Shown here: piece after piece, positions 6,024 to 24,063 of the stretch
Layout of the letters: each line of letters starts with the position of its first letter
Position numbering within the stretch: position 1 is the first letter of the stretch
DNA from: Longitalea arenae
GTDB lineage: Bacteria; Bacteroidota; Bacteroidia; Chitinophagales; Chitinophagaceae
Assembly (NCBI RefSeq): GCF_016924755.1
Contig: NZ_JAFFJX010000014.1
Coordinates: forward strand, 1 to 64,000
DNA: 64,000 bases
Direction: 5' to 3'
Program-made: the position numbers and the translations under genes
The notes under the pieces: model-generated
The model's database searches: none
Told to the model about the DNA's origin: nothing
Seen by the model: only the letters and a program-made list of their open reading frames with translations

Positions 6024-7448
6024 TCAGGCAATGGTACGCAAGCGATTCCTGCCTATAAAAGCAGAGAAAACAGTGAGCAGCCAAAGCCATCCCAGTCCGC
6101 GCAACAATTTGCCGGTATTTACTGTGGGCGGCGCTGGTTCAAACACCGGCAGCTGCCTGAAATCGGCTTTCGTCATAAAGCGGCCGGCAAATAAGGGTTC
6201 AAAACAAAAATGAGATAGGCGGCGATGAAAAGCGGCTATGGATGCGCGGAAGGCAAAGGCATTCTCCAATCCGCTACTAGCCAGGGTATTCATTAGCTCC
6301 TGGGCATTCACCGCCGGATTGATCCCATGAAAGGCCGCCATTTGCGTATGCCGGCGCCTGATGCGTTGAAAGTAGGCGTCCACCGAGGGTTTTGCCTCGG
6401 CATCCGCCAATGTTACATATGCCGAATAGGCCTGAAACTCCAGGAAAGGGTTCGTGGCGGCCGTGTCGCGATGCCTGTATTGCGGATAGATCCGGTAAAA
6501 GCGTTCCAGTACTTCCTCTTTCTCCTGCTTCGATTCACCGAGGCCCTGCTGCCGGCGAATGTAGTCGGTCAATTTGGTAGGGTCTGCCTGGCTTTCATCG
6601 CTAAAGGCCAGGTTCAGCAAGGCCGGGATCACTACCAGGAACAGCAGCCAGGCGCCCAGGCTTGCCAATGCATTGATGGCGCTGCTCTGCTGAAATGAAT
6701 TGATGAGCAGCAATAAGGCAAACCAACACAATGCATAAGATCCGCTGATCAATAACCACCACAAGAAGTAACCGGCGTCTACGAGCGAAATATCCGCCCA
6801 GATAAAAGCGATGCAGGAGATCAGGCATAAAAGCGCCATGATGATGCCCAGCCAAAACAGCAGTTTGCATATAATGATGCGGTGCAAGGGCACTGGTTGG
6901 ATCCGCAGCAAAGGCAGGGTGCCCCGCTCCTGCTCATCGGATAAGAGGTTGTAAGTACAAGCAATGATGAGTAAGGGCAACAGGTAAATGATCACAAAGG
7001 AAAGATCGAAGTTACCTGCCAGCAGCTTACGCGGATTGGCGATCTCCGACCTGAAAAGCTGCAGGTATAAATTCTGCGCATTGAGCGGCAGGTAATATAC
7101 ATTTACATCGCGCTGGCCAATAGACAAAATCGCCAATGGCGCCGGCTCATCGATGGCATAACAGGTCAAAAAGAAACGCACCTTTGACGGGAAAGCCGCT
7201 TTTTCCCAGGCCGCGCGCCCTGCGGCCGTAGTCGTATCGGCATGCAGCCCCTTTATCAATTGCGCTTGCTCCTGTGCATTTTGCTGCCTAATGTATTGTA
7301 TGGTCTTTTCCTGCCGGTTTATTACAGCATTGCCATAATGAACCGCATAGAGGGCCGCGACTGCAAACAGCACAATGATACTTACCTGCAGGTAGTTCCT
7401 GGTAAAAAGTTTCCATTCGCGCCCACCTATCAGCAACAGCGTTTTCAT
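6024..7448 (-). CDS. ABC-2 type permease, DUF3526-like (second of pair)
   Basis: A 474-residue inner-membrane protein with the architecture of DUF3526 ABC-type permeases: one N-terminal membrane segment (about residues 20-38), a large periplasmic loop, five hydrophobic segments between about 155 and 290, a second periplasmic region and a final segment. The cytosolic motif DEQERGTLPLLRIQP near residue 170 matches the ABC-2 permease signature. Its ATG overlaps the stop of the preceding permease (ATGA, 7445-7448), so the two are translationally coupled and probably form a heterodimer. No ATP-binding subunit is encoded in this window, which is unusual for such a pair. Confidence 0.8.
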   Translation of the reverse strand: MKTLLLIGGREWKLFTRNYLQVSIIVLFAVAALYAVHYGNAVINRQEKTIQYIRQQNAQEQAQLIKGLHADTTTAAGRAAWEKAAFPSKVRFFLTCYAIDEPAPLAILSIGQRDVNVYYLPLNAQNLYLQLFRSEIANPRKLLAGNFDLSFVIIYLLPLLIIACTYNLLSDEQERGTLPLLRIQPVPLHRIIICKLLFWLGIIMALLCLISCIAFIWADISLVDAGYFLWWLLISGSYALCWFALLLLINSFQQSSAINALASLGAWLLFLVVIPALLNLAFSDESQADPTKLTDYIRRQQGLGESKQEKEEVLERFYRIYPQYRHRDTAATNPFLEFQAYSAYVTLADAEAKPSVDAYFQRIRRRHTQMAAFHGINPAVNAQELMNTLASSGLENAFAFRASIAAFHRRLSHFCFEPLFAGRFMTKADFRQLPVFEPAPPTVNTGKLLRGLGWLWLLTVFSAFIGRNRLRTIA

Positions 7449-8878
7449 AGGCGATTGATAATGGGTATTCTTTTGAGAATGACATAAAATAGTACGCAGG
7501 ACAGTACCAGCAGCGCTGCCAGTGAAATCAATTCCATCCGGTACAAGGCCAGCACCTGCCGTAAAGGCAATTGGTGGTACTGAAAGTCGGGCACCGAAGC
7601 ATACAGCGAGCGGGAGGCTTTATAAGTCCAGTCGCCCTGCCGCGAATGATACATCATGTCTTCATTCATCTTTTGCACAAAATGCCGCCGGTAATTTTCA
7701 GTTTTCTGCTGAAAGTCGATATGCGTATACAGATCCGTAGCTGCAAGTGCCATGGAAAGACCCTGTACGGCGAGATAAGGATCAACGACCCCAGCCAGGC
7801 GGCAGAAGCGGTCCTGCTGCAACAAGGTATTTTGCAGCTGGTGAAAGTGTTTATCGTAGACCATACTGCTGTACGCTTCGCCCGCCTGCATAATATATCC
7901 TTCAATATTAAATGGCAGCTCGGCCACCGTTTTAACCTGGTATTGTTGCAGGAGTTTGGCCTGCAGTTGCTGTGCACGCTCGTCCTGGGTATTGTGCCCG
8001 TCGATGCCCTGCCTGATATCGCGCTGAATGGCTTCGCGAAAATTATATTGGGCCGGCAGCGGGTAGCGGTCGCTGCTCATATTGGCAACTGCTTTTGGAA
8101 TGATAATACAAGTGAGTATCCACCCTGTAAGCAAAAGCAGCAAGGCATGGCCGCTGCTCTTTGCAATGGCAGAGACAAAGACCGTAAGCAGGGTGAACAA
8201 TAAAAAATAGCCGGCATAAACGGCCAGCAGCATCAGAACGCGCAAGCCCTGGCCGCTGCTGCCTTGCGCCATGGTGGCAAAGAACACACCGGTTAAACCC
8301 AGGGCTGGCAATAACAAAAGCAAAATCGCGCCATACTGACCCATTACTTTACCGGCGGCTATAGCGGGCAGTGAGATCCCGCTGCTGAACAGCAGTTTGA
8401 GCGTACCCTGCTCCCTTTCCCGGGTAACAGTAGAAAAGCCCATAAAGATGATGAGCAGCGGCACTAATAATTGCAGGACCAGCGCTACTGATAATTGACC
8501 AAAGCGGATGCCGGCGCCATGACCCTCTGCCGGTTTGAACAGGAAATCATTTTGCCGGTGAGGTTCCAGGTAGGCATAAGCGCCCGCATAATTGTCGAGG
8601 CCATCATCGAACATACTGAACCAGGTCTTTGGCTTGTAAGCGAAGGTGCCGAAATGGGCCGCTATATGCGGGTGTTTGGGATCCTGGTGCAGCCATTGCT
8701 CCCGCTTTTCCCGCTTTGCCTCGTCGCGGATCTGTTTTGCCGTTTGGTAATTGCGGTAAGCGCCTCCCGCCGCCACCAGTAAGAGCAGCAAGATGATAGC
8801 TGCCGTAAGCAGGATCAGCTTGCTGCGGTACACGGTGGTCAGTTCTTTCATGGCTAACTGTAAAAGCTGCTTGCGCAT
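7445..8878 (-). CDS. ABC-2 type permease, DUF3526-like (first of pair)
   Basis: A 477-residue inner-membrane permease. It has one N-terminal membrane segment (about residues 20-42), a periplasmic loop, then a cluster of hydrophobic segments from about 135 to 270 containing the cytosolic signature TREREQGTLKLLFSSGI, and a last segment near the C-terminus. It is related in layout to the next gene and overlaps it by four bases. It starts 2 bases after the end of the lipoprotein gene. The pair would form an ABC exporter or lipoprotein/peptide transporter core with an ATPase from elsewhere. Likely cargo, by context only, is the small His/Cys peptide or its ligand complex. Confidence 0.8.
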   Translation of the reverse strand: MRKQLLQLAMKELTTVYRSKLILLTAAIILLLLLVAAGGAYRNYQTAKQIRDEAKREKREQWLHQDPKHPHIAAHFGTFAYKPKTWFSMFDDGLDNYAGAYAYLEPHRQNDFLFKPAEGHGAGIRFGQLSVALVLQLLVPLLIIFMGFSTVTREREQGTLKLLFSSGISLPAIAAGKVMGQYGAILLLLLPALGLTGVFFATMAQGSSGQGLRVLMLLAVYAGYFLLFTLLTVFVSAIAKSSGHALLLLLTGWILTCIIIPKAVANMSSDRYPLPAQYNFREAIQRDIRQGIDGHNTQDERAQQLQAKLLQQYQVKTVAELPFNIEGYIMQAGEAYSSMVYDKHFHQLQNTLLQQDRFCRLAGVVDPYLAVQGLSMALAATDLYTHIDFQQKTENYRRHFVQKMNEDMMYHSRQGDWTYKASRSLYASVPDFQYHQLPLRQVLALYRMELISLAALLVLSCVLFYVILKRIPIINRL

Positions 8879-8880
8879 GT

Positions 8881-10062
8881 CTATGGAAGTTTATCGAAAC
8901 CGCTGCAGCGGCCTCCGGTAAGGCTTAGTTTTTTATTAACAGCGCCATTGGCCAGCTGGTAACTGTAGATGCTGTTTTCCGATCTGCCGGATACGGCAAA
9001 AAGCAACTGATCATTATCATAGCTGCGGATCACGGCGCCATTGGATCCGTATACATCGGGTAAAACAGGCAGCTTGCCAGCACTTGTTTTTTGCGCCAGG
9101 TCGATCCTGAAAAATTGATGGGCGGGCCCGTTGAGCTCATAGGCATCGGCGGGATTCACCAGCGCCAGCGTAAAAGCGAGTCCATTATCGAATAGCGATA
9201 AACCACGGCATTTATAACCGGTGGCAGCATCCAGATCGAGAAACCAGGTGGGATCAAAATCCGTTGCTCCTTTTTTAATGCGAAGGATACCGCTCGGCCG
9301 GTTGGTATACCCAAGGCCAGCCACATAGATATCGCCGTTTTTGTCCATGCTGAATGCATTATACGCATCGAACACACTCCCTGTACGGTGATCCTTTATC
9401 AGTTTCTCCAGTCTGGCAGTGGCCAGGTCTATCACGGCTACATAAGCGGTATCATTGTATTTCTCCACAAAACCGGCTCCTTCATAAAAGACACCCATGA
9501 ATAATTTACCATCCCGGGCTTTCATGCCCAGGTAGTACATCACCGGCGCCTCGGGGCGCAGGATCGCAGCCAGGTCGATCTCGCCGCTGCGCTCCATGGT
9601 GGTGGGGTTGAATTTGATCAGTTTGGCCAGTCCGCCCGCCACGGAAGCATAGGCTTCGGTGGGACTAACAAACGCTACTGTAGAGTAGGTCTTGGCGCCG
9701 GGCACCACCAGCTCGCCTGTTTTTACGGCTTTGCCGCTTTGGTCAAATGTATATTTGGTCATGGTGGCGGGGGAATTATACACGCTCACGTAGGCTGCGC
9801 CGTTATAGGTGATCAAACGGCCATTACCGGCCAGCTCTGTAGCATTGCCATTACCTAGGGAAGCGGTGTCGAAACCGGCCAGTCCCTGGATATAGGTCGT
9901 TTGCGCACTTCCCGTGCCCGCTACCAGCGCAATGGCATATACATTCGCGTCTTTTTGCTGCGGGCCGCCGCCATGGTCGTTTTTGTCGCAACCGCTTAAA
10001 CCCGCAAAAGCGATCAGGGCAGCATATCCGGGGATTCTTAACAGTGTGTTCTTGCTTTTCAT
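8881..10062 (-). CDS. DUF4374-like surface lipoprotein, beta-propeller type
   Basis: A 393-residue lipoprotein. The signal peptide ends in a lipobox with the lipidated cysteine in GLSGCDKND (about residue 25). The remainder looks like a seven-bladed-propeller type fold with regular strand patterns (YAIALVAGTG, ELAGNGRLITYNGAAYVSVY, AVIDLATARLEK). It resembles DUF4374 proteins, which in Bacteroidota usually sit beside TonB-dependent receptors of siderophore type. Here it lies 13 bases after the TonB receptor gene at 10076. It probably binds ligand at the surface or in the periplasm together with that receptor. Confidence 0.7.
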   Translation of the reverse strand: MKSKNTLLRIPGYAALIAFAGLSGCDKNDHGGGPQQKDANVYAIALVAGTGSAQTTYIQGLAGFDTASLGNGNATELAGNGRLITYNGAAYVSVYNSPATMTKYTFDQSGKAVKTGELVVPGAKTYSTVAFVSPTEAYASVAGGLAKLIKFNPTTMERSGEIDLAAILRPEAPVMYYLGMKARDGKLFMGVFYEGAGFVEKYNDTAYVAVIDLATARLEKLIKDHRTGSVFDAYNAFSMDKNGDIYVAGLGYTNRPSGILRIKKGATDFDPTWFLDLDAATGYKCRGLSLFDNGLAFTLALVNPADAYELNGPAHQFFRIDLAQKTSAGKLPVLPDVYGSNGAVIRSYDNDQLLFAVSGRSENSIYSYQLANGAVNKKLSLTGGRCSGFDKLP

Positions 10063-10075
10063 TTTGGAGTTGCTT

Positions 10076-12226
10076 TTATTGTTCTAAAAAGATCCTTGCT
10101 TTCAGGGTAAAGGCGCGGCCGGGCAACTGGACATTGTAATTGTCGTACACCCGTGCATTGCCAAGGTTGTGCACTTCAACACTCAGTGCTGCGCGGTTAT
10201 CGCGCAATGCATAACTGAGCCCTGCCTGCTGCACCCATTGCGTAGGGATCACCGCCTTGGTATCGCGCCGGCCGTCGTTCGACCAGTAGAGGTAAAACCA
10301 ATTCACATAGTTGATCCCATACCAACACTGCAGGGTATGCTGGCGGCGAAAGAGGTTTCGCCGGGTCCATTGCAGTTCGCTATTGGCAAAAAGGAATGGT
10401 TTATTGGGCAATCGCTGGTTATAATAGCGGTCATCGATATTGCCGGTATTCTCTTTCTTCGATCTGTTGATGATATGCTGAAAAGTACCGTTTGCCCAAA
10501 GCGACAAAGACGGTAAGAGCTGGCAGCTGGCTTCGGCTTCTACACCAGCGCTCCGGGCCTTTAAGAGGTTGCGGTATTGTGAGCTCCGGGGTGCGGCCTG
10601 CAGGAAAATAATATTATCAGTAAGCCGGAAAAAGCTGTTAACTGCTGCCGTGAAAACAGTGCGGCTGTACCGCGCCATGAGATTAACATTGTGACTCTTC
10701 TCCGGGAGAATGGAAGGGTTCGCTCTTACCAGGCTGAAATCGCCGAATACTTCCGGATCCTCGGGCAAACGGGTAGCGTATTCATATGATGCTTTGATCA
10801 GCCAGTGACGGTCAAGGTCAAATTTAAAAGCTTCGCTTAGTCCCAATTGTTGTTTTGTCTGACTGGCCGGATGGAAGACCATATTGTCGATAGTGAAACC
10901 GCTTGCATGGTACCAGTAGTATTTGACAGCCGTCGTGCTGGTCATACGTGGAGAAAAGCGGCGCTGCCAGGCAAGGCCCGCCGTATGTTTTTGCATCCGC
11001 ACCCGGTGGCCATAAACATCCTGGCCGTAATAGTTCTCTGCGATCGTGTCTTTGCCTTTACGGGTAAAGTAAGTGCTGGTAACTGAAAAGCTGAATGTAT
11101 TAGTGCTGTCTGCCGTATAATTCAATTGCAGCCGGCCCACCAGGTTCTGCGTGGTAAACAGCAGATCGGTGCGGGCGCTGGCGATCTCGCCATAGGCTAT
11201 TCTTCTTTCATATACTTTTCCATCCCAGGTATAGGCATTGTAGGAGGTATCGAGAAAATGTTCTTTGATGGCGCCTGCGTTGCCATAAAAAGTGATCCCA
11301 AGCCCTGGCAGCAATTCCTGTTTCACGTACCGTATGCCGGCATTAAAGGTTCGTTCATTGCGTGTAACGGCGCCATAGGGTTCCGTCATCACCAGGTTGT
11401 GCTGTACCTCTTTATCCATGCCATAATAGGAAGCATTGACACTGAACAGATCGGCCCATTTCCTTTGCCGGATGCCGGCCTCTACATTCAATTGATGGTC
11501 GCGGTAGCGGTCGTGGAAGCGTTTTATTTTTTGCGTCACCGGGTTGCCCAGCCGGTCGGGCACCTGGGCGGTGATGGGATAATTGTTATCGCTGTAGTTA
11601 ATAAAAGCCCCTGCCTGCAGAAAGAAGCGGTCATTAAAATTCCGGTAGGTATTCACAACGGCTTTATGGGTATTGAAAGAACCAATACTGTAAGCGGCAT
11701 CGGTATAATTATTCAATTGCTGGCGGGTGACAATGTTGATGGCGCCGCCGAGTGCATCGCTGCCCAGTTCGATGGGCACAACGCCTTTATACACTTCTAT
11801 GCGGTCGATGGCATTCACGGGAAAGATGTTGAGGCGATTACCGGCGCCCAGAAAATCGGCGGGGATCCCATTGATGAAATATTTCACCTGGCGGCCGCTG
11901 ATGCCATTGATCGAAAGATCGGCCTTACTGCCCAATCCACCTTCCTGGCGTATACGAACGCCGGGCGACTGGTTGAGAAGGGCCAGCGTGGTGACAGGCC
12001 TGTTATAATATTTCCTTGCGTCGATGACCGTAACGGCACGCGTGCTTTGTTGCAGGCTGCCGGCAGAGCTGGTGCGCACTTCAACTGCTTTCAGTTCCGC
12101 GGTCTTTTTTTTCAGCGTATCGGGCCCTTGCGAAAGGCTGGCGCCTGAGGAAGCAGGCAATTGCGCCTGCACGTTATAGATCATCAGCAGCTTTGCAAGG
12201 AATAATATGCCGGTCAATTGCTTCAT
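10076..12226 (-). CDS. TonB-dependent receptor
   Basis: A 716-residue outer-membrane receptor that would import a bulky ligand with energy from TonB. It has a signal peptide of about 21 residues (ending NVQAQ), then a plug domain (about 45-170: TLALLNQSPGVRIRQEGG, KYFINGIPADFL, NAIDRIEVYKGVVPIELG, DALGGAINIVT) and a barrel to the C-terminus. It lacks the N-terminal SusC-type domain, so it is of the siderophore/metal-receptor style. Its ATG overlaps the stop of the preceding gene by four bases (12223-12226). Position inside the small-peptide operon suggests that the ligand could be the processed peptide or a metal complex of it. Confidence 0.85.
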   Translation of the reverse strand: MKQLTGILFLAKLLMIYNVQAQLPASSGASLSQGPDTLKKKTAELKAVEVRTSSAGSLQQSTRAVTVIDARKYYNRPVTTLALLNQSPGVRIRQEGGLGSKADLSINGISGRQVKYFINGIPADFLGAGNRLNIFPVNAIDRIEVYKGVVPIELGSDALGGAINIVTRQQLNNYTDAAYSIGSFNTHKAVVNTYRNFNDRFFLQAGAFINYSDNNYPITAQVPDRLGNPVTQKIKRFHDRYRDHQLNVEAGIRQRKWADLFSVNASYYGMDKEVQHNLVMTEPYGAVTRNERTFNAGIRYVKQELLPGLGITFYGNAGAIKEHFLDTSYNAYTWDGKVYERRIAYGEIASARTDLLFTTQNLVGRLQLNYTADSTNTFSFSVTSTYFTRKGKDTIAENYYGQDVYGHRVRMQKHTAGLAWQRRFSPRMTSTTAVKYYWYHASGFTIDNMVFHPASQTKQQLGLSEAFKFDLDRHWLIKASYEYATRLPEDPEVFGDFSLVRANPSILPEKSHNVNLMARYSRTVFTAAVNSFFRLTDNIIFLQAAPRSSQYRNLLKARSAGVEAEASCQLLPSLSLWANGTFQHIINRSKKENTGNIDDRYYNQRLPNKPFLFANSELQWTRRNLFRRQHTLQCWYGINYVNWFYLYWSNDGRRDTKAVIPTQWVQQAGLSYALRDNRAALSVEVHNLGNARVYDNYNVQLPGRAFTLKARIFLEQ

Positions 12227-13143
12227 GGTATTTCTGTAATTAATCCTTCTGCGATCATTTCATCATAGGCTGCGCGGTATTTTTCCCGCAAACTGGCCGT
12301 GCTTAGGATGCCATCAGCCGCCTGCCATATTTCCCCTTGCAGGCCTGAAAGGCGCCAGGCAGCCTGCCCTTCGCGCGGCAGTACATACCGCTGTTCTACG
12401 CCATCTTTTGTTTTTTGCAGGAACAGGTGTTGTTGATTGCGCAGGCTACGGGGCTGCTGATAACAATGCAGGGGAATGGTGATCCGCTCTTCGTTGTACA
12501 GCAGGAAGATGCTTTTGCCGGCCGTGTTTACAGTAAGAGACCCGCCCGGCGCCATGTGTATTAGTTCCAGCTTTTCCGGGCGCTCGTGACGCTCAGCCGC
12601 GTACGTAATGAGTTTTGCCGGTACGGGTTCCGGACCGGGATTATGGATCAACAAGTGCTCACCCTCTTCCTGGGAGATGTTCAACTGTTCTATATAAAAA
12701 AAATCTTCGGTGGCAGTGCCTGAATATTTGACCGAACCATCGAGATAGATCTCAGACAAGAGCGTGTATTTGCCAGGAACCGCATCACGGGGTACGGCCC
12801 AGGTAAAATAGTAATGGCGGCCGTTTTGCATATTGGTCAGGAGCTCCACCAGTTTCTCCCGCTGTTGCGGCCCCGTTAAATAAGATGCAAGCACCAGCAG
12901 GGGCGTATATTTTTGGAGGTATTGACCAGTATCATTCGGTTTCAACGGCTCAGGCGCTGAGACCGCAGTGGAAGGCAGCAGCAATACATGCTCTTCAAAA
13001 AGCATATGCGTGTGCCCGTCAGGACTGTTTATACCTATCCGCACCAGGGGGCATACGGCTGCTTCCATACCGGCCGGCAAGGTAATGTTCCAGTGAATGG
13101 TTATCGCGCTGCCACGAATGGCCCGTTTTGGAAAAATGCTCAT
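12223..13143 (-). CDS. Unknown protein with a PqqD-like C-terminal tail, candidate peptide-recognition protein
   Basis: A 306-residue soluble protein without signal peptide; I do not recognise it as a whole. The N-terminal two thirds look like two beta-sandwich modules (IRGSAITIHWNIT; GKYTLLSEIYLDGSVKYSG). The last about 60 residues read like a PqqD-type winged helix or RiPP recognition element: QRYVLPREGQAAWRLSG, EIWQAADGILSTASLREKY, then a helix ending in AEGLITEIP. That pattern (Leu/Trp, IW..ADG, Leu at helix ends, GLI) is typical of PqqD-like domains, but the match is short. It lies between the GRDP-like gene (1-base gap) and the TonB receptor (4-base overlap). By context it could bind the leader of the small peptide. 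Alternative: an unrelated immunoglobulin-like carrier. Confidence 0.5.
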   Translation of the reverse strand: MSIFPKRAIRGSAITIHWNITLPAGMEAAVCPLVRIGINSPDGHTHMLFEEHVLLLPSTAVSAPEPLKPNDTGQYLQKYTPLLVLASYLTGPQQREKLVELLTNMQNGRHYYFTWAVPRDAVPGKYTLLSEIYLDGSVKYSGTATEDFFYIEQLNISQEEGEHLLIHNPGPEPVPAKLITYAAERHERPEKLELIHMAPGGSLTVNTAGKSIFLLYNEERITIPLHCYQQPRSLRNQQHLFLQKTKDGVEQRYVLPREGQAAWRLSGLQGEIWQAADGILSTASLREKYRAAYDEMIAEGLITEIP

Positions 13144-13144
13144 A

Positions 13145-13615
13145 TCAATGTTTGCGAAGGTTCCTGATGGCTTGTTTACTATATCGCTTTGGGTATTCCT
13201 GGAACCACCTGATCACCGTTTCCTGCCCCAGTTGGTCATAGGTAATGCTCATGAAGGTGGCCAGCTTTTCTTTAAATGCTTTTCTTGCGGCAGCGGCATC
13301 AAGGGCCAGCTGCTGCTGTTGTTGCCTCTTCTCCATTTTGCTGGCGGGCAGGTGATGCAGGTAAGCGCCAAAATACCGGTCACAGAACTCCTGATAGGTA
13401 GCCGTGAACAAAATGAAGTTGTGCCACATTTCGTCTATGATAAGCAGTTCATCGGGTATGAATACGCCGGGTTGCCGGCTTATATAAAGGAACTTCTTCG
13501 TTTCGGTAAATATGGCTTCCGCTTCGGTTTCGGATACATCAAACAGATCGGTGAATCGGGCAATCACATCTTCGTTCTGATATTGCAGCAGGGCTGCCAG
13601 GGTAGTGCTTTGCAT
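13145..13615 (-). CDS. GRDP-like (glycine-rich-domain-like) protein, candidate maturation factor
   Basis: A 156-residue soluble protein with no signal peptide. The core block DEMWHNFILFTATYQEFCDR followed by YFGAYLHHLP (about residues 66-95) strongly resembles the conserved motif of the GRDP-like family, with the ordered residues Trp-His, Cys and His-His that could bind a metal. A Gln/Ala-rich helix and a basic C-terminus follow. The frame stays open to a GTG at 13711 inside the peptide gene, but ATG 13615 is better, because it leaves the peptide gene and its hairpin as a normal leader. It is the first large gene after the 39-residue peptide, so it may modify or carry the peptide. The family has no settled biochemical function that I can cite. 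Confidence 0.65.
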   Translation of the reverse strand: MQSTTLAALLQYQNEDVIARFTDLFDVSETEAEAIFTETKKFLYISRQPGVFIPDELLIIDEMWHNFILFTATYQEFCDRYFGAYLHHLPASKMEKRQQQQQLALDAAAARKAFKEKLATFMSITYDQLGQETVIRWFQEYPKRYSKQAIRNLRKH

Positions 13616-13636
13616 GGCAATTGGTTTTAAGTATAG

Positions 13637-13663
13637 GAACAGCGGGGCGATCCCCCGCTGTTC
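13637..13663 (-). promoter_or_regulatory. Strong perfect hairpin between peptide gene and downstream operon
   Basis: A perfect 11-bp inverted repeat, GAACAGCGGGG / CCCCGCTGTTC, with a 5-base loop (13648-13652). It lies 14 bases after the stop codon of the small peptide gene and 22 bases before ATG 13615. No T-tract follows on the minus strand (TATACTTAAAA), so it is not a typical full terminator. A hairpin in this place between a peptide gene and its partner genes usually limits read-through or protects the peptide mRNA, giving excess precursor over enzymes. Confidence 0.75.
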
Positions 13664-13676
13664 TTCTTCATTCAAA

Positions 13677-13796
13677 CTAATCGGGTGTAACGCAGCAATG
13701 GCTGCCGCCACAGCAATGCGTGCTAGATCCGGTCCATGCGTTTTCTCTTTGTTCCAGCAGCGATGCGATCAATACATCCTTGTTGATGATTTCCAT
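13677..13796 (-). CDS. 39-residue His/Cys peptide, candidate RiPP or metallopeptide precursor
   Basis: A small gene on the minus strand, ATG 13796 to TAG 13677. The first 25 residues are a leader-like amphipathic segment (MEIINKDVLIASLLEQRE, then NAWTGSS). The last 14 residues, THCCGGSHCCVTPD, hold all four cysteines and both histidines in an internal repeat, HCC-GGS-HCC. The leader/core split, a Gly-Ser boundary, a hairpin just after the stop and a tight operon with transport genes resemble ribosomally made modified peptides, including copper-binding ones such as methanobactin. The core itself is not methanobactin-like, and no DUF692-type, LanB/LanM, YcaO or radical-SAM maturase is present in the window. 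It could equally be an unmodified metal-binding peptide. The frame is supported by codon pattern and context only. Confidence 0.7.
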   Translation of the reverse strand: MEIINKDVLIASLLEQRENAWTGSSTHCCGGSHCCVTPD

Positions 13797-14032
13797 AATT
13801 AAAGTGTTTAATAGTTAATGCCTACTTTTTTAAAAGAGGTGTTCGGCAGGTGCCTCTATGCCCGGCCGCCGGGTACCACGTGCCGCCAGGCAATTCGGTA
13901 TACCATGGGTTGGTCTATCTTGTTAATAGAAGATGTAAATAAAGTACAGTCATTGTCTGCATGCGTGAAACAGCTATGCAGCCAATACCCGCCTGTCATG
14001 CAACAGGGCAATAGATGTGTTCTGAAAAGTAT

Positions 14033-14368
14033 TTATGCTTGTGGGGGTCCGCGACTATCTGAAACAAATAAGCGATCGGGATTGATGGCCGTGATCAGCC
14101 GGCTGTAGGTTGGCCCGGTGTATACAGGTGCTATCACCAATATTAATTCGCCGGTGAAGGGAGTGTCTTTGGCAAGCTGGAATTCACATATGGAACATTC
14201 GGCGTGTGATAAAGCTCCCTTGATGAATATATTTTCCTGTTTGCAGGAATGGGATGTATTGTAAGAAGCATGGGAGTGGAACGCTTTGGCAAGATGCACC
14301 AGGGTCATTACTGCGACAAGCAGTAAGGCGATCAGTTGTCTGGTATATGCAAGCCTGCGATACATCAA
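14033..14368 (-). CDS. Small His/Cys-rich membrane-anchored protein
   Basis: A 111-residue protein with an N-terminal membrane segment or signal (LIALLLVAVMTLVHLAKAFHSH). An extracytoplasmic part follows with clustered potential metal ligands: HSHASYNTSHSC and HAECSICEFQL. This is the layout of small proteins often found immediately before TonB-dependent metal receptors in Bacteroidota, loosely like DUF2946. It is on the same strand as the peptide operon and ends 236 bases before the peptide ATG, so it may share a transcript. A promoter lies directly at its start (14371-14400). The start codon could be the first or second ATG. Confidence 0.6.
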   Translation of the reverse strand: MMYRRLAYTRQLIALLLVAVMTLVHLAKAFHSHASYNTSHSCKQENIFIKGALSHAECSICEFQLAKDTPFTGELILVIAPVYTGPTYSRLITAINPDRLFVSDSRGPPQA

Positions 14369-14370
14369 AA

Positions 14371-14400
14371 CAAAGATAGGGGAATTTCTATTAAATGCAA
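14371..14400 (-). promoter_or_regulatory. Bacteroidota-type promoter (TTG-N19-TATCTTTG)
   Basis: On the minus strand TATCTTTG (14378-14371) is a perfect TAnnTTTG -7 element, with TTG at 14400-14398 at a 19-base spacing, as expected for the primary sigma factor. It ends only 2 bases before the ATG at 14368, so the transcript would have almost no leader or translation would start slightly downstream. It could drive both the 111-residue gene and the peptide operon. Confidence 0.55.
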
Positions 14401-14500
14401 CAGTGTTGTATTTTCATTTTACCGGAAATCTGACATAAAAAAAGAACTAAGATGAACGGCTTTGATTATGAACCAGCTGTTACCGTTGCCGCTATGCGAA

Positions 14501-14567: not shown

Positions 14568-17500
14568 TTACACCACTTTGTATTTCACCACCAGCAAAAT
14601 GTCGTCGATCTTGGTTGCATCGAGGGAATTGCTGGTAGACGCCATCGTCCAGGTGCGCACGAAAATTCCGCTTTGTGCAGAGGATCCCTGCTTCAGTTCG
14701 CCCAATACTGCCACTGGTTCAAAATCAACGGCTTCACCGTTGAGCTGCAGATTCAGCGAACTGAGGTCTACCGTTTGACCGGTTTTCAACTTCAGCAAAA
14801 CGGTCACCGGAACCAATTCGTCAATATCGAGGTTCTTGGCGCTAAGCCAGTAAGGCAGATGGTTGCTGGTGATCTTGAAGTTGACCTGCTGCGTATCGGC
14901 ATGTAATAATTTATGGAACTCAGTAGAGAAATCGGCCTTCATACTGATCAGTTTAAAGAAGCCGGTTCCGTTCTCCTGCGTTTTAATGATATCGTCGAAA
15001 TGACTGTTCAGTTCCGATTTCACTTTAGTGCCTAATACCGCCCCACCCTGCCGCGCAGTATAACGTACATGCAGGATCACATCGCCGATGCTATTGAAAT
15101 CGAAATTTTTGAAATCCTTGTTCAGTTCCAGTTTCCATTCGCTCACAGCGCCATGTCCTTCGAAAGGTAAATAGCGTTCGTCGCGCAGGTTTACATCAAA
15201 CAGACCACTATCATTCTGGCCCGAGCTGGTGACTATTTGCTGAATAGAAGAATAATTGAAGGTAAAGCGGCTGTCATCTTCCACGGGACCGGCCGGCATA
15301 TAATTACCGGAAGCATCGGCCGTTACCCGGGTGCGGCTCTTCAGCAAGGTAAGCGTACAGTTCACGTTGCTGTATGGACCAACAATACAAGGTATGCTGA
15401 TCGCTACCGATTTAATGCGGCGGAAATAATGACCCGGGTAATCGATATCGAAGATCTCTTCAGGCAGGGCTATAAAACAAACCCCGTTTTGTTTCAGCTT
15501 CAATAATGCCACCGGATCGATCTGGTTCAATGAAATATGCTTTGATAATTCAAACTCGCGTTTGTTCTTATCATAGTAAGAAGCGTCGAGCCGTTTGAGA
15601 TCCAGCGCCAGTTTTTCGCCGGCCACCAAGCCTTTCTTCAAACTGTCCCAATAGGTAGATTGTATGAAGGTGGAATCGGGAATACCCAGTTCGTAGCGGT
15701 AACATCTTTCTGCCCGTTTCGACATATCGAATGCCAGCTGATAACTTTGGAAATAAATGCCCGATACCTGGGTGATCATCCATTCGTACAATTGCTGGTT
15801 GGTGAACTTTCTGCGCATGTACTGGTGCGTTTCCTTCGACTGCTCGATCTGCAATTGCTGGTTATCCAGTTCTTTCTGGGCGATATCGCGCCGGATCTCT
15901 GCCACCACGATCTGCTGGTCTATTTGTGCGATCTCCTTGTTGGCGGAGCGCACCTGGAAATCCCAGTCTTCCTGGCGTCTTTGATAAGACCCCTGCGTGG
16001 AGGCCAGGCCTGCGCCTTTGTCGAGGGCCGCCGCAATGGCCGACATGGTCTTGGTTGCGATCTCGGCTGCATCGCCGAACTGCACGCCACCGATATCGAC
16101 GGTCACGTGGGGGGAACCGCCAAAACCCGAGGCGCCGGCCACAAATTGCGGGATCGCTTTTAACCCACCTGCCAGGATATAACCGGCTGCAATAGCCGCA
16201 TCGAGCACCGTGCTGGCAGTGGACAGGGAGAATGCGACGATCTCGGCCGGGTTCATATAATCGAGTGAAGAATAATAATCCAGTTTCTCCTGTACCACCG
16301 CCTTCGTTTTATTCAGCTGTTCTATATTGGCGATGGCTTCAGTTACCTGCGTCTGGCGAACGGCTTTTACGGCTTCGTGCATGCGGATCTCCTGGGCGGA
16401 GCGCAATAAGGCCATTTCTTCGGCATCCCGTTTTTCCAGAGCGCTCAGCAATGCACCACCCAGTGATTTCACCTCACTGCAGAACTCGTTGGCTTTTTGC
16501 AAACAGGTACTGAAGCGGTAGTATGGCAATGGCGCATTCAATCCGGAGATAGCTGCTCCCAGGTTCACCCCCGATGCCACGGCTTTTACCAGCAGACCCG
16601 GATCGATCGGCGGGTCGAACAAGGCCAGGGATCTTTCTATACCATCGATATTCATCGAGTGCCTGATCTTGAACAGGCGATCGGCGATGGTACTGCGATA
16701 ACCGAGCAGTTTTTCATTCGAAGGCAAACAGAAATAAAAGACGTCAATATCGGGCAAATTGCCGCTGCCGCCATTATTGAATTCCTGCACATCGTCGGTG
16801 AAATAAGGGATAAAATTCTCCACTTCAATCAATGCATTCGAGAAGGTATCCAGCTTCGTCTCCAACTGGTTGTAATTCATCACCGGCACTTCGAAGAAAT
16901 TGGGGATGGTTTTCGGTTTGGGCCCCAGTATTACGGCAGCCAGGATGTATAACTGGGAAGCTGCCGTGATATTCTCCCGCGTATCTGTTCTGAACAAATT
17001 GTCGCCCCAGGCAATCAGGTTTTCCAGGTATTTCATCACCGTGGATTTCTGGTAAGCCACAGTTCTGAACTGGGCAATACGGTGGGGCTGGAAGGGATTT
17101 CGCCGCCAGTCGTCCACATCCTTGATGAGGTCGGCATCGCCGCCATTGATCATATTCAGGATCTGGTCGATGCGCTGGTTGATATAGTCCTGGTTCGAGC
17201 GCACAAAGAAGGGTTTGGTATTCCAGAACCGTTGGGGTGAGCTATGGGAAGAAGCGTCCGTCGGGTTGAAGATATAATGATACCAGCGCATGGCCTCTTC
17301 GAACTGTTGGTTATTGCTGAGCTTTTGCGCGATCATCATGGGTGCATGATAAAACAGTTCCCAGTTGTATTGGCCATAACTGCCCCAGGCATTGAAATCC
17401 ATGGTCTCTTTGGGATAACCGGGACTGGTAAGCGTATCGGGATCGAGCGGGTTAGGCACTACCCTGGTATCTTCCGAATTTACCAATGCAGTAGGTGTAT

Positions 17501-20500
17501 AGGTTGTTGCAAAGTCAAAGGAAGGCAATTCGGGATATTTCGTTTTATCGAGCAACTGCACTTCGCGTTTTAACATACCATCGATCCCTTTCATGTACAA
17601 CTGTTTGATCATAAAACAAACATAGGGATGATAGAAATTATTGAACTTCAACTTGTACTCGATGGCAGGCCATTTACCATCTTCAAAGAAAGGCTTTAAG
17701 ATATCGGGCAATTTGCCGGTGCGCAGGATCTCCTGCAGGATCTTCAGGAGATCGGAATAGAACAATTCTGCCTTTAATGGTTCCTCGTTGCTATCGGGCT
17801 TGCGTTTGGTCAATATGATCTCCTGCGGTACAAAGAAGGTGCGTCCTTTGTCTTCATAAAAGAATGGCAGGAAAGTGCCAACCGGGAATGGCCACCTGAA
17901 ATCGGAAATATAATGGCCATTGGCGCTATTGGCCGCATTGATGTACAGGGAAAAGATCTTCAGGATCAACTTATCGAAGAAAGAAAGCTGCGATGACTGC
18001 GGTGTTCTGAACCTGCCCGGTGTTTTTTGCAGGATGGGCAGGTGATTGATGAAGAGGTTGCCCTGCTGGAAGGCCAGCACATCATTTGTTTTGACATTCG
18101 CCTCATGGCTTTCCAGGAATTTGAGCTCACTTCTTTCGAATTGCGGAATGATGGGATTACTGATGAGCAGCCTTACTGCCGGATCATCCAGCACTTCGGG
18201 GGTGCCATGACAGCTTCCGAGATCGAAATAATCAACGGCTTCCGTGTAATAGTAACTGGCATCATCCGGGGAAGTATTGCGGCAACAACCGATCAGGTAC
18301 CTTCCGGCCAGATCGATGAGATCGAGCGGAACAAAGGTGAAGTCTTCCTTTGCATAATCCCTGTACAGGTATTGCGATCCCCAGGTTTTGCCCGGACTGG
18401 CAATCGCTGTTTTCGAGATCTTCTTGGGCGTCCATTTATTATTCCTCAATTCCGACACCGAGAGGTGAATGTCCCAGTATTTACGCGGCAGATCGAGCGG
18501 CACCGATGAGGCGGAATTGCCAGGAAGAGCGGGCATGGTCGTATTGGCCACTTCAATGGTCTGTTCCCTGAATTCAGGCCAGTATAGATAGAGGCGACGG
18601 TTGATCACCACCGGTATTACATGTGTTGCATTGATCTCGAGATCCACTTTTTCCCAGGGCGTCCAATAGCGGTCTTCTACCCATTTGCGGTAGTAATAAA
18701 TATGCGGATCGTCGTAGGTGCGGGCAAACACGTGCAGGGTGTAGGTGTCTTCTTCATAATAAAAGCCGCTTACATCCAGCCTGGCTACATTATCCAGTTT
18801 TTCGAGGTAAGAGAGATAGGCATTCTCCACATTCTGTTTATTCACCTCGTTCTGCATCAGGTCATTTTCCAGTTCCTGGAAGAAGGAAGATTTGTCGAGC
18901 CTGAGTTCAGGCTCTATCCAGTTTTCCGGCGTTATAAACACTTTGCGGTTGGCCGCCCATACCTGGTAGTATTTCATCCAATCCCATTGTTCCCAGCCAT
19001 CGTCTTCCGCAGCATCGGCAACGATCTCGGCTTCGAGGCTCATCAGGCATCGTTGCACAAAGAGCTGGATCGATAAATTGGCCTGCAGAATGCGGGTGGT
19101 CACTTCTTTCGAGCCCATTTCGGTATCGAGTAAATAATAGCTGAAGAGAGCATCCGCATCGGCAAACGTATTGCCATTAACGGTATGATGCGTAAAATAG
19201 GTCACGAGCGCATCGCGTTTTCTTTCGCGGATCACGGCCTGGATATTCGCAGATGTATTCAGCCATTGTTCATTCTCGTATTTGGATTTCACCAGTTGTT
19301 TTACGCCGATGGCATCGGCAGCAATAGGCGCGGGATTGATAACCAACGGAATTTGCGCAGCCTGGATCCCGGCGGTGACCAGGAGGTTCATACAGCCATC
19401 CAGGCGCAGATATGTTTCTGTTTTCAGGTAATCGGCCGGATAGGTAAGGCCAATGCGCGTTTTTAGTTCAGTAAGCTCATTGGGATCCCACAGGGTGAGG
19501 TTTGCCAATGCCTGCAGGAAATTGGCTTCCGTATCCACTACAGGCAGCAGTTTTTGTAAAGCAGCAACCAGGGTACCCGACTCTGTATCCGGATAGTTGG
19601 CTGCAAACTGGTTCAGCTGCACATAACTCTTCCACTTATTGAAATGACTGTTGAGTGTACCTGGCGCTACAGGCAATTCATCAAAACGCAGCACCCCAAA
19701 ATCGCCGGCATTGGTGATGAGCAGTTGGATCACCTCCACCTTGAAGGGCAGTTTGGCCTGCAGCAAAGCGATCTTTTTCAGCAACTGGTAACTCTGGAAC
19801 AGTTCGGGAAAATTGGCGACGTCGATGGTATTGATATAATGGCCGTTATTGTCTTTGGCCAACAGGTCTTTATCGAACCAATACGATAATAATGGATCGG
19901 TGAGGCCGGGCAGGTGTACTGTATCAAGCACCAGTTGGTTGATATCGGCCGCCAGTTTGAACTGGTCTTCATGCAACTGGTACAGGGCCTGTTTCGACAG
20001 GTCGGTGGCCAGGAAGGCCAGCAGCAGGTCAACAAAGGTTTGATAAGCTTCCAGGGTACGCTGGTCGCGGTCCAAGGCCGGCGCCCCATCGCGCGTATTC
20101 AGGGCCGTTTTAAGGGTTGTTGTATTGATCATGGATCCGTATACCGTATCCAGGAATGTATTCCTTGCTGCCTGCGTACCGGTATATGTGCCATTGAAGA
20201 TCTGGATGGTATCATTGGCGGCAGTTTCATCGACCGAAGCGATCTTCCCGATCAGGGCTTTTGCTTTTTCATCGGGCAGGCCGGTAAGGCTGTGTAAATC
20301 GTCTTTCAGTTTCTGTAAAACATCCCTTCCCCTGGTAATAAAGGCAGTGATTATTTCTGTTGTTGGAATAAAAGCGCGCGGGCCTTCGTTCACCTGCAAC
20401 AAGAGATAAGCCAGCTCATAAATACTGAACCTGGAAGCACGGATGATGGAAACCAGTTCAATGAATTGACTGGTAGCGGCCGGATCGGCAAATACATCGA

Positions 20501-23500
20501 AGGCGGCGCCTGTGTTCAGGATCTGCAGGAGCAAATAATACTCGGCGGTGCTTATGCGTAATTTGCGGGTAAGCGAAGCGATCCGGTAGAAGGTGCTGAT
20601 ATTCGATAGAGACAAAAGGTCGGCAGCAGCAGATTTCGCTTGTATTTGCAGGGCCTCCTCCTCTTTCAGCTTCAATACGGCGGCCAGGGATTTTAATTGT
20701 GCCGTAATCGTTCTGAGGCTGCCATCCGCTGCAGGTGGCGCCGGATTGGGGAATGGATTTTCCGTCACCAGCGCTACCTTAAATGCATCGGGCAATGGAT
20801 TCAGGATAACCTTATTCTGGAACAAGGCATTGTACAAAGGTTTTGCACCGCTAATGCTCAGATCGCCATACCAGGCTACCAGGTCCTGTACCGGTTTGTT
20901 CATGGCCGTTTTCAGCTTCATGAAATGCTGCAGCTTTATGAGGAAGGCTTCATCCAATACCGTATTGCCGATCCTGCTATTCATCAACACCATGTCCAGT
21001 TCCCACATCTGCCAACCGGTTTTACGCCATAAACGCAGGAAGCGATGGATGCGGTCGAGCTTGTTATTGTCAAGGTTTGAAATGTTCTTATTATTCAGGT
21101 CGGCGGTAGCATCATTGTGCACCACTTTGGAATCGTAAGCAGGGTTGATAAAACGCTGTTCCAGTAAGGTAAGCAGCTGGGTATATTCAAGACCCGATTT
21201 TGCCAGGAATACCGCCACCACATCGATATTCGCCAATCCATCCCAGCAGCTGGCTTGTCCGGCCGCATCAGCCGTAGTGATCAAAAGCCGTTCCGTAGGC
21301 GAGATACCCAGGAACTCACCTGCGATCTGGATATTGGTGGGCGCCGGCCCGCTTTTGTTTTGAAAAGATTCCATCCACGATGCCCTGTTAATACCCAGCT
21401 TGTCGAGATAACTCCTGCTTTCTTCCCAGCTCAGATCAAATGGCAGGGTATGCGGATATTTTTGTGTTTTAAGTATGGTATCGTATACGGTATAATTGAT
21501 GTATTCGGGTATAGCATTGCGTTCGGCCGCTGTTCCATGCGTTTGCTTAACCAGGCTGAGCTCCAACTGGCCGGCTTTCTTTTCAATTTTATAGGTATGC
21601 AGGCTGTCGCGAATAAACCAGCTAGTGGCATTGCCAAGGGTTACAGCCGCTTTTGCATCTATGTCCTGGTTCTTTGCCTTGAGCTCAGTAAATACGGCCG
21701 GGTGTATAAGCCCTTCGGTGAGTTGTGCTTCTATCGCCGGGTTCAGGATCACCGTCGTGAAGGACAGCGTGTCTTCAAGTACTTCGCATACCAGGTCGAT
21801 ATAGGGAATGGCAGTATTGCTGTTTTCGCAATTCAGGTCTATTTCACCAATATCGGGCCGGCGTTTGAACAATACCTTTTTGGCAGATTGCATTGGCGTT
21901 GTAGAGCCGCGCTTATCCAGGTATTTGATAAGATCAGTAAGGTAGGCCGCGGGGCTATAGATATTCTTACAATCCTTGCATTCAAAATTATCGGTTGAGA
22001 AGAACAGGGTTTTAAGGTCGGGCAGTTCTGTCATCTCCAGGGCTTCATAGGCTTCGTAAACATTAGGAAGCACGGCCAGGCCGGAACCCGTTTGCAAAGA
22101 TTTCAATTCACCGATGATGGCAAGTGAGGCTGCATATGAGCGTTCGGCTTTTTTATAGATCTCCCTGGCTTTTTCTTTCGGAATTTTTGCCGCTACCTTT
22201 TCGGTAAATTGTTTCTTGCCGAGTTTGTATACTGATTGGGAAGAGGTGATATTTTCTTCCAGCAGCGCTTTTGACGTCTCATAATCAGGCGCCAGTTTGA
22301 ATACGCGCTGGATCTTTTTCAGGTCTGCTTTCAGCGCCGCCTTATTGTTGAATTTGCTGTTGATGGCCTCCTTGTTCTCTTTGAAAAAGGTCTCGATATT
22401 CGTCTTATGCAATTCAAGGTTCGGATAGGCATCAAAGAAATTCAGGAGCGGTTCCTTCTCCCCCACCGGGCCTTTATCATCTGCTTTCAGTTTCCCGGCA
22501 AAAGCAGCTGTGGGATATTGTTTCTCCAGTAATCCCCGGATCTCTTTGATCCGGTCGGTGGTCAACTTACCGGCGGGATTGCCATTGAAGGATTTCCAGT
22601 CTTTTTCCGACAGCATGGCCAGGCGGGGCAGGTCTTCCGGGCGGGTGATATTCAGTTTTTCTTTTACGGTAGCCGTGGTATTTGCATCATTCACCAGCTG
22701 GTGAATGGCGATCAGGGCCTGTAACTCTTTGGATGATCCTTCACCGAATGATCCCTTATCGAGCGAGGAAGACAAACGACGGATGTCGTGGCCATGTACT
22801 TCAAACAAAGCTTCCGCTGCTTTTTTACGTTCTTCATTCAAACTGGTGCTGTTCAGCAAACGCCGGAAATCGTCTTTGCTGTTCCTGCGGCGTTGATCAA
22901 CGATCTCTTTCCATTGCTTCAGCAGTTCCTGGCGATCGGCTGCCATCTGTGCAGGAACGACCTGGTTCCTGATGGCATAGTCGAATGCATTGGGCACTGC
23001 ATCTTCGGGTAATAAGGCCAGGGCATTCAGCATGGCCTCGGGTTCCTGCGACATTTTGATAAAGGGCTCGCCGATATTCTCGTTCTTTTGAAGCGCCTGC
23101 AGGAGCCCGATCAGGTCCTGGGAATCCTTGCCTACCAGGGTGACTGCACCGGTCACATATTCAGGGATCAGTTGTGCGCGCATGAGGGCGTAACAAAAGG
23201 CCGGCGGCATTTTGGTGACCTGCGCTACCTGCTGTGCATTGATCAGCCATTTTACCTGCTGTTCGCGGCTTCCTGTTTTTTCGGCCAGCAGCCGGTAAGG
23301 ATTATTCCTGTCCTCCTGCCTGATCTCGGCCACCGGTACTTCGCGCAATAAGCCGGCAAGTTTTCTCTGGTGTATCTCAAATTCCGATTCCCGGGGAAAG
23401 CGCTCACCACCGATCACTATATTGAATTCGGTATGTGCAGATGCATTGTAGGTGACCTCTGAAGTATATTCAAGTCCTTTTCCATTGAAGATCCGCAGGA

Positions 23501-24029: not shown

Positions 24030-24063
24030 AATTTTTCTTTTTATTTGAATGAATTCATGTTGT

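Follow-up and report, generated by a model that had tools for sequence, protein, structure and literature searches.

A gene of 39 codons at the head of an eight-gene receptor and ABC transport operon in Longitalea arenae encodes a peptide with a conserved leader and a conserved Cys/His core. We read this peptide, with a probability of roughly one in two, as the precursor of a RiPP-like metallophore that would be exported and recaptured by a TonB/DUF4374 pair, its metal most likely being zinc. The analysis started from a stretch of 64,000 nucleotides of one contig, here called the window, and from an earlier note on it whose interpretation is partly supported. New beyond that note are the link between GRDP-related domains and Cys-rich sequences across phyla, the DUF805b leader of the relatives, a palindrome shared with CobW/COG0523 genes, and a MATE cluster in 26 of the 34 loci compared.

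The peptide gene and its operon

The peptide gene lies at 13677-13796 on the minus strand (13796 to 13677) and translates to MEIINKDVLIASLLEQRENAWTGSSTHCCGGSHCCVTPD, followed by a stop codon; translation of the plus strand of 13677-13796 gave no such peptide. The earlier note had described, without the strand, a 39-codon gene in which HCC-GGS-HCC carries every Cys and His, and the motif does hold all 4 Cys and both His of the 39-aa product. In this precursor-like peptide residues 1 to about 25 form the leader and THCCGGSHCCVTPD the core. No Pfam or NCBIfam model matched the peptide up to E=1.

The gene is the first of eight on the minus strand from 13796 to 3750, with intergenic gaps of 61, 1, -4, 13, 2, -4, and 30 nt. 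It is followed by an all-helical GRDP-related protein of 156 aa (13145-13615; motif DEMWHNFILFT..Y...C..FG...HHLP), the proposed maturation or handling factor, where "GRDP-related" means linked to PF07173 via intermediates, and by a 306-aa protein with no signal peptide by eye (12223-13143). Next come a TonB-dependent receptor (10076-12226), MxcH-like at 521 bits where the model cut-off is 925, and a lipoprotein with the Pfam domain DUF4374 (8881-10062), the family of XusB. Two ABC permeases with a DUF3526 domain (DUF3526/ABC2 by Pfam; 7445-8878 and 6024-7448) and a second TonB-type beta barrel (OMP_b-brl_3 by Pfam; 3750-5993), present as a full-length homologue only in some relatives, complete the run; the eight-gene run of the earlier note is real. 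Known maturase families were not found among the operon proteins with Pfam and NCBIfam. The window operon, in which the peptide is accompanied by receptor and permeases, encodes no protease, ATPase or MATE exporter, and neither ATPase nor MATE lies nearby.

Upstream, 14033-14365 on the minus strand encodes a small membrane-anchored His/Cys protein with a CSICEF motif; its cluster occurs in 4 loci of the window's family, the window included, and a look-alike with CxICDHA forms its own cluster in 7 other loci. A single ORF of 3174 aa (14568-24092, minus strand), Tc-toxin-like by eye, also adjoins the operon. In genome G000 a CC-GG-CC-like codon pattern was matched 5 times in total versus 2 in the reversed control, and two further such patterns stand about 730 bases apart on contig C33 (85982-86734; L027, L028).

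The conservation of the peptide was followed in 31 loci that the 306-aa alignment returned from named GTDB genomes, in a scan which used two exact peptide patterns and therefore samples genomes that keep those patterns. A like peptide of 33-39 aa lies directly upstream of the GRDP-related gene in 30 of the 31; in the remaining locus (L050) the contig ends before the peptide position, and one locus (L039) has two copies. Beyond these loci the peptide was found in G000, G214, G085 and Aureibacter, whose plasmid pAT2 carries MEKKETIIENLLAERKDLGLGHCSNCGHCSASF upstream of its operon copy. The place is the same in Niastella, Aquimarina, Tenacibaculum, Pedobacter, Mucilaginibacter, Reichenbachiella, Flavobacterium and Aureibacter. 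The Aureibacter operon copy (L095, 1-9160) adjoins a TonB/HmuY/CobN/ExbB-like locus on its plasmid. One operon-bearing contig (L057) is titled Thalassovita, which we take to be an alphaproteobacterial name; its operon is Bacteroidota-like and it may come from a misbinned MAG. In 294 genomes of the window's family the peptide search gave 19 matches at E<=0.05, of which 5 were accepted as real (window, G150, G214, G085, and G185), the other 14 being judged, as a group, to be at chance level. The operon is patchy, with the 306-aa gene in 4 of 195 genomes of the family and the peptide in all 4. Loss of the peptide from an operon otherwise kept, named beforehand as evidence against the idea of a precursor gene, was seen neither in these 4 genomes nor in the 31 loci (30 with the peptide, 1 contig end), and the peptide does head the receptor/ABC operon, with leader and core conserved.

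From the 35 peptides found, 28 were aligned. K6 in the leader is invariant, as are H27, C28, H33, and C34, which make two HC dipeptides; the other Cys vary. The leader consensus is ..KEALIxxILAEK.. and the prevailing core THCSNCGHCTSTL, often after Gly-Gly, with variants such as HCC..HCC in the window's lineage (HCCGGSHCC), HCSGGGHC in Reichenbachiella and HCGGHC in a Chryseobacterium MAG. By this alignment the exact HCC duplication, present in the window as the earlier note had seen, is a variant of the window's lineage, and what is conserved is the pair of HC dipeptides plus the leader. The short homologous frames that it had proposed to look for upstream of GRDP-like genes do exist, but they keep HC...HC and not HCC...HCC exactly, and they keep the leader. 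Codon changes among close homologues were 274 synonymous versus 233 nonsynonymous, whereas single changes would be expected to be synonymous in about 20% of cases; the sums run over pairs of related sequences and so are not independent. Conservation above chance confirms, at the level of sequence, that the peptide gene is real. Leader and HC...HC core are as in a RiPP precursor, from which the core would be cleaved.

DUF4374 and both permeases occur in 29 of the 31 loci and TonB in 30; a contig end cuts the operon in L043, and L059 holds only the peptide, GRDP and a split 306-aa gene. Among the 34 loci compared, 27 have an ABC ATPase cluster, 8 a methyltransferase and 26 a MATE cluster, in some cases as a fragment at the edge of the locus. 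In Flavobacterium (L060) the peptide, GRDP, 306-aa, MATE and methyltransferase genes stand together, the last two assigned by Pfam (MatE for the MATE gene), and the transport genes lie separately on the other strand, which suggests a module for biosynthesis and export and another for uptake.

RNA element and palindrome upstream of the peptide

A divergent DUF805b-like 5'-UTR pseudoknot element lies at 13819-13856 on the minus strand, upstream of the peptide; it scores 11.8 bits at 13819-13843, below the gathering score of 35.6 of Rfam RF02914, and its 5' arm to 13856 was placed by eye. Its second helix is still able to pair. At the same place before the ATG the relatives carry DUF805b at 39.6 bits (L033) and 45.1 bits (L044), and 4 of the 6 loci scanned over their full length exceeded the gathering score. 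In 31 of 31 distinct leaders (from 34) the second helix forms its three inner pairs, a count biased towards pairing by the anchoring of the arms on short sequence patterns, with two-sided changes at each inner pair (G-C to A-U, C-G to U-A); the outer fourth pair forms in 8 of the 31 only, and for the first helix the assessment was visual. Between the GTAGG-type element and the ATG there are 26-30 nt in 33 of the 34 leaders and 36 nt in L048, and this near-constancy supports the start codon of the peptide.

With matches in 90 of 247 Bacteroidota genomes, 51 over the cut-off, DUF805b is by sequence a generic 5'-UTR element of that phylum. Many small or secreted genes have such an RNA about 24-63 nt upstream of their ATG (L120-L149; 28 of 30 loci anchored), among them double-glycine Cys peptides (L127, L143, L149) and, in L136, a leader that we take to be NHLP-like.

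An operon that opens with tandem Cys codons and has a conserved RNA upstream might also begin with a regulatory leader peptide, that is a Cys-codon attenuator whose product has no function. We regard this as highly improbable, since the RNA element is upstream of the ATG and not after it, residues beyond the Cys are conserved with synonymous changes in excess, and no terminator-like site was found in the window from 13000 to 14500.

The palindrome TTGCAACANTGTTGCAA occurs with up to 3 mismatches in 22 of the 34 peptide leaders; in 20 of the 22 it stands 75-85 nt upstream of the ATG, and each of the 22 leaders beats 100 single-base shuffles. It is absent from the other 12, namely those of the window, L030, L022, L023, L031, and seven loci of Tenacibaculum, Flavivirga, Algibacter and Allomuricauda, these seven having at most a half-site. 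With 1 mismatch allowed, 12 sites were found over 9 operon-bearing genomes (7 with a match) and 0 in the reversed control. Five of the sites are in the operon leader, 1 is inside the operon before TonB, and 6 are elsewhere: 2 of these precede cobW/COG0523 genes, one with merC in between, and the other 4 a secreted subtilase, a peptidase-like protein, a GntR regulator, and an unnamed lipoprotein. Many COG0523 genes lie downstream of putative Zur sites (PMC2770081); the main text of that paper contains neither "bacteroid" nor "flavobact".

Two His with two Cys form a zinc ligand set. Together with the putative operator that the peptide leader shares with CobW/COG0523 genes in many relatives, they suggest zinc rather than copper as the most likely metal. 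For the window operon zinc would be transferred by orthology, since its own leader has no palindrome. The known DUF4374/TonB pairs, which take up iron siderophores and not zinc, count against this assignment.

GRDP-related proteins and Cys-rich sequences

PF07173 did not match the 33 members of the operon's GRDP-related family up to E=1, nor anything in the window's genome, and its gathering score was not reached. A GRDP-related profile matched 11 of 395 Bacteroidota genomes, the window's included, and reached proteins that PF07173 also matches (2 of the 395 genomes over its cut-off). The matches include proteins of 450-476 aa with tails such as SSCGSSCGSSCGGCGGD and weak scores for PF07173 and TIGR04222, as well as the stand-alone protein of L069. 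Compared by hhalign with a profile of three bacterial GRDP-related domains, from proteins with CGSSCGSSC tails, the window's family gave a probability of 95.7%. Similar to the PF07173 GRDP-like proteins, it has the motif D..WH...T..Y...H.P. An alignment of 26 sequences, 6 from the operon family and 20 from GRDP loci (that of Aureibacter among them), shows conservation of 90% or more at D, W, H, T, Y, H, and P; D..WH, the anchor used for placing the sequences, is present in 26 of 26. Unlike them, the window protein is a stand-alone domain that PF07173 itself does not match. Homology was found via intermediates and a shared motif. PF07173 GRDP-like sequences also occur in plant glycine-rich domain proteins.

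A tblastn search with the window's GRDP-related protein returned 47 plasmid records, 25 from E. coli, and a second query 17; 26 regions were fetched from about 60 distinct plasmid records. The GRDP-related loci come from at least six phyla (Bacteroidota, Pseudomonadota, Actinomycetota, Bacillota, Cyanobacteriota, and Deinococcota). After eight alike loci (L071-L077, L079) and one tandem pair were collapsed, and Aureibacter (same operon) and L114, L118, and L119 (no motif frame) left out, 26 independent GRDP proteins remained. A Cys-rich tail, defined as 3 or more Cys among the final 40 residues, is present in 14 of the 26 versus 12 of 162 control frames (Fisher p 8.5e-8), the controls being the remaining open frames of 100 aa or more in these loci, which were called mechanically and are neither annotated genes nor collapsed. 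One of the 14 tails, that of L117, contains 3 Cys without being rich in Gly/Ser. In five further loci a Cys peptide or protein lies no more than two genes away (L069, L096, L097, L100, L106), such neighbours having been picked by eye without formal control, and seven have neither tail nor peptide (L098, L102, L107, L109, L111, L112, L116). In L069 a Gly-Gly Cys peptide precedes a stand-alone GRDP-related protein, and L106 adjoins a TonB gene. Two of the five have a GGGHCQGGG-type peptide. In Halomonas a peptide ending in GGGHCQGGGSW is followed by the GRDP gene and a transporter-like protein (MatE at 20.2 bits, below the cut-off), and in P. savastanoi a peptide ending in GGGGHCQGGGGW is followed by the same two kinds of gene, the transporter-like protein being named by eye with no Pfam match. 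This order resembles the peptide, GRDP and MATE genes of L060, where the 306-aa gene lies between. From the association with Cys-rich tails and peptides we infer that the GRDP-related protein has a role in maturation or handling.

GRDP-related genes were seen in other settings. On a Rhizobium gallicum plasmid (L110) one with the tail ASCKGCNGCAAGCVS stands with a glycosyltransferase between nifW and nifS; among actinobacterial loci one is near a radical SAM protein (L099) and another has as neighbours an AlkB-type protein and what may be an ATP-grasp protein (L098; the latter without Pfam match and named by eye). The E. coli plasmid pHUSEC41-3 (L094, 376-3592) has a microcin-like cassette of a GRDP-related protein with the Cys tail VCGCSGKGCGAGCSCNSR, an ABC exporter and a JmjC protein. 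At least 80% of the three genes was found in 29 of 5,426 complete E. coli genomes and any match in 88; all 100 places found are plasmid-borne.

The GRDP loci of such 7.9-kb E. coli plasmids, with their Cys tail, ABC exporter and JmjC protein, as well as the DUF805b RNAs before double-glycine peptides, would fit a secreted antimicrobial or signalling peptide, the operon then being a receptor with ABC export or immunity. We consider this a distinctly unlikely reading: the core is nearly constant across families, unlike most bacteriocins, TonB and DUF4374 are missing only in L059 (DUF4374 also at the L043 contig end), and the palindromic operator is common to cobW genes in relatives. Somewhat less improbable, though still unlikely, is an unmodified metallothionein-like buffer or metal chaperone, for which the GRDP-related and 306-aa proteins would handle metal and the transporter would import a foreign metallophore. 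The Cys/His core and the absence of a known maturase from the operon agree with such a peptide, and piracy of foreign siderophores is what DUF4374/TonB pairs of known function do (PMC13142918). Against it speak the division into leader and core, with a Gly-Gly ahead of the core in many homologues, and the GRDP-related genes elsewhere, which often have low-complexity Cys tails or lie beside exporters, although L106 adjoins a TonB gene. The precursor reading remains the one that we prefer.

A structure model of the GRDP-related protein is all-helical at pLDDT 89 and had no convincing PDB match by sequence or by fold, so that catalysis by this protein is a guess. In the AlphaFold model of the 306-aa protein (pLDDT 83.5) an FnIII/arrestin-like domain is followed by a second beta sandwich and a small winged-helix-like end of beta strands and three helices. 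This end may, from the model, be RRE-like and bind the leader; sequence comparison does not support that reading, with an hhalign probability of 1.2 (E 0.019) against a profile of four PqqD-like proteins and a PqqD match at E 0.096 in 1 of 24 family members. Weak matches to PF25334, the C2 domain of GRDP, in 2 of 33 homologues of the 306-aa protein (E 0.11) hint that GRDP and a beta-sandwich partner recur together.

The GRDP-related protein may instead be a partner protein, like PME/DUF2063 of MNIO clusters, with a maturase that is unlinked or of another kind not yet known. We hold this to be possible but doubtful, and it is compatible with a metallophore. The protein is small and all-helical, with no known catalytic fold; according to the main text of PMC12452194, the N-terminal domains of PME-type 2 partners are rich in helices as well, and some of them precede RRE-type domains. 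TIGR04222 proteins, partly MNIO-linked in the same text, contain a GRDP-related domain (L105, and weakly scored L071, L072, and L079). The conserved motif residues argue against a mere partner, as does the distribution of MNIO: of 21 operon-bearing genomes searched, 16, among them the window's, gave no match to PF05114 (E<=0.001), and in the other 5 it lies outside the operon. The earlier idea of a peptide made without the standard maturases fits the 16 genomes.

Proposed function and known systems

In the pathway that we propose, the helical leader would be recognised in the cytosol by the 306-aa protein, the GRDP-related protein or both, and the latter, whose D..WH...T..Y...H.P residues resemble a metal or catalytic site, would modify or load the HC...HC core. 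The core would then be cut off, often after Gly-Gly, and exported, possibly by the MATE exporter where one is encoded; once loaded, it would be caught by the DUF4374/TonB pair, arranged like XusAB, with the DUF3526 ABC system acting at the inner membrane. We infer each of these steps, that is recognition, modification, cleavage, export, metal, and uptake. More tentatively, and with lower odds than the metallophore itself, the GRDP-related domain could be a widespread enzyme, so far overlooked, that matures Cys/His/Gly-rich sequences, both C-terminal tails (in cis) and small precursor peptides (in trans), and the window operon the first ribosomally encoded zincophore known. If so, the 39-aa peptide and two small proteins would be a testable substrate set for a domain family of unknown function, and there would be a ribosomal route to zinc scavenging. 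The E. coli plasmid cassette makes the GRDP/Cys-tail idea testable in a common laboratory species.

Methanobactin genes include MbnA, MbnB, and MbnC, MbnB being an MNIO. As there, a short ribosomal Cys peptide, here a proposed metallophore, heads an operon with a TonB receptor; in contrast, the window has GRDP-related and 306-aa proteins instead of an MNIO, and an HC...HC core that would probably bind zinc rather than copper. By analogy, the likeness is one of logic, not of family. In XusABC, the xenosiderophore uptake system of Bacteroides, the DUF4374 protein XusB binds siderophores with XusA (PMC13142918), and in the window, too, a TonB transporter adjoins a DUF4374 lipoprotein; the likeness to XusA is by gene arrangement, not by sequence comparison. 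Unlike XusABC, the window operon encodes its own peptide and has DUF3526 ABC permeases in place of the PepSY protein XusC. The TIGR04222 and bufferin-type MNIO substrates share a Cys/Gly/Ser-rich stretch (main text of PMC12452194), and TIGR04222-like proteins with such tails have GRDP-related domains fused to them, whereas the proposed substrate in the window is a free leader peptide in trans. The main text of PMC12452194 reports TIGR04222 clusters without MNIO and mentions neither GRDP nor PF07173; for these clusters the GRDP-related protein is a candidate partner and, if the wider proposal is true, a candidate for the maturase itself.
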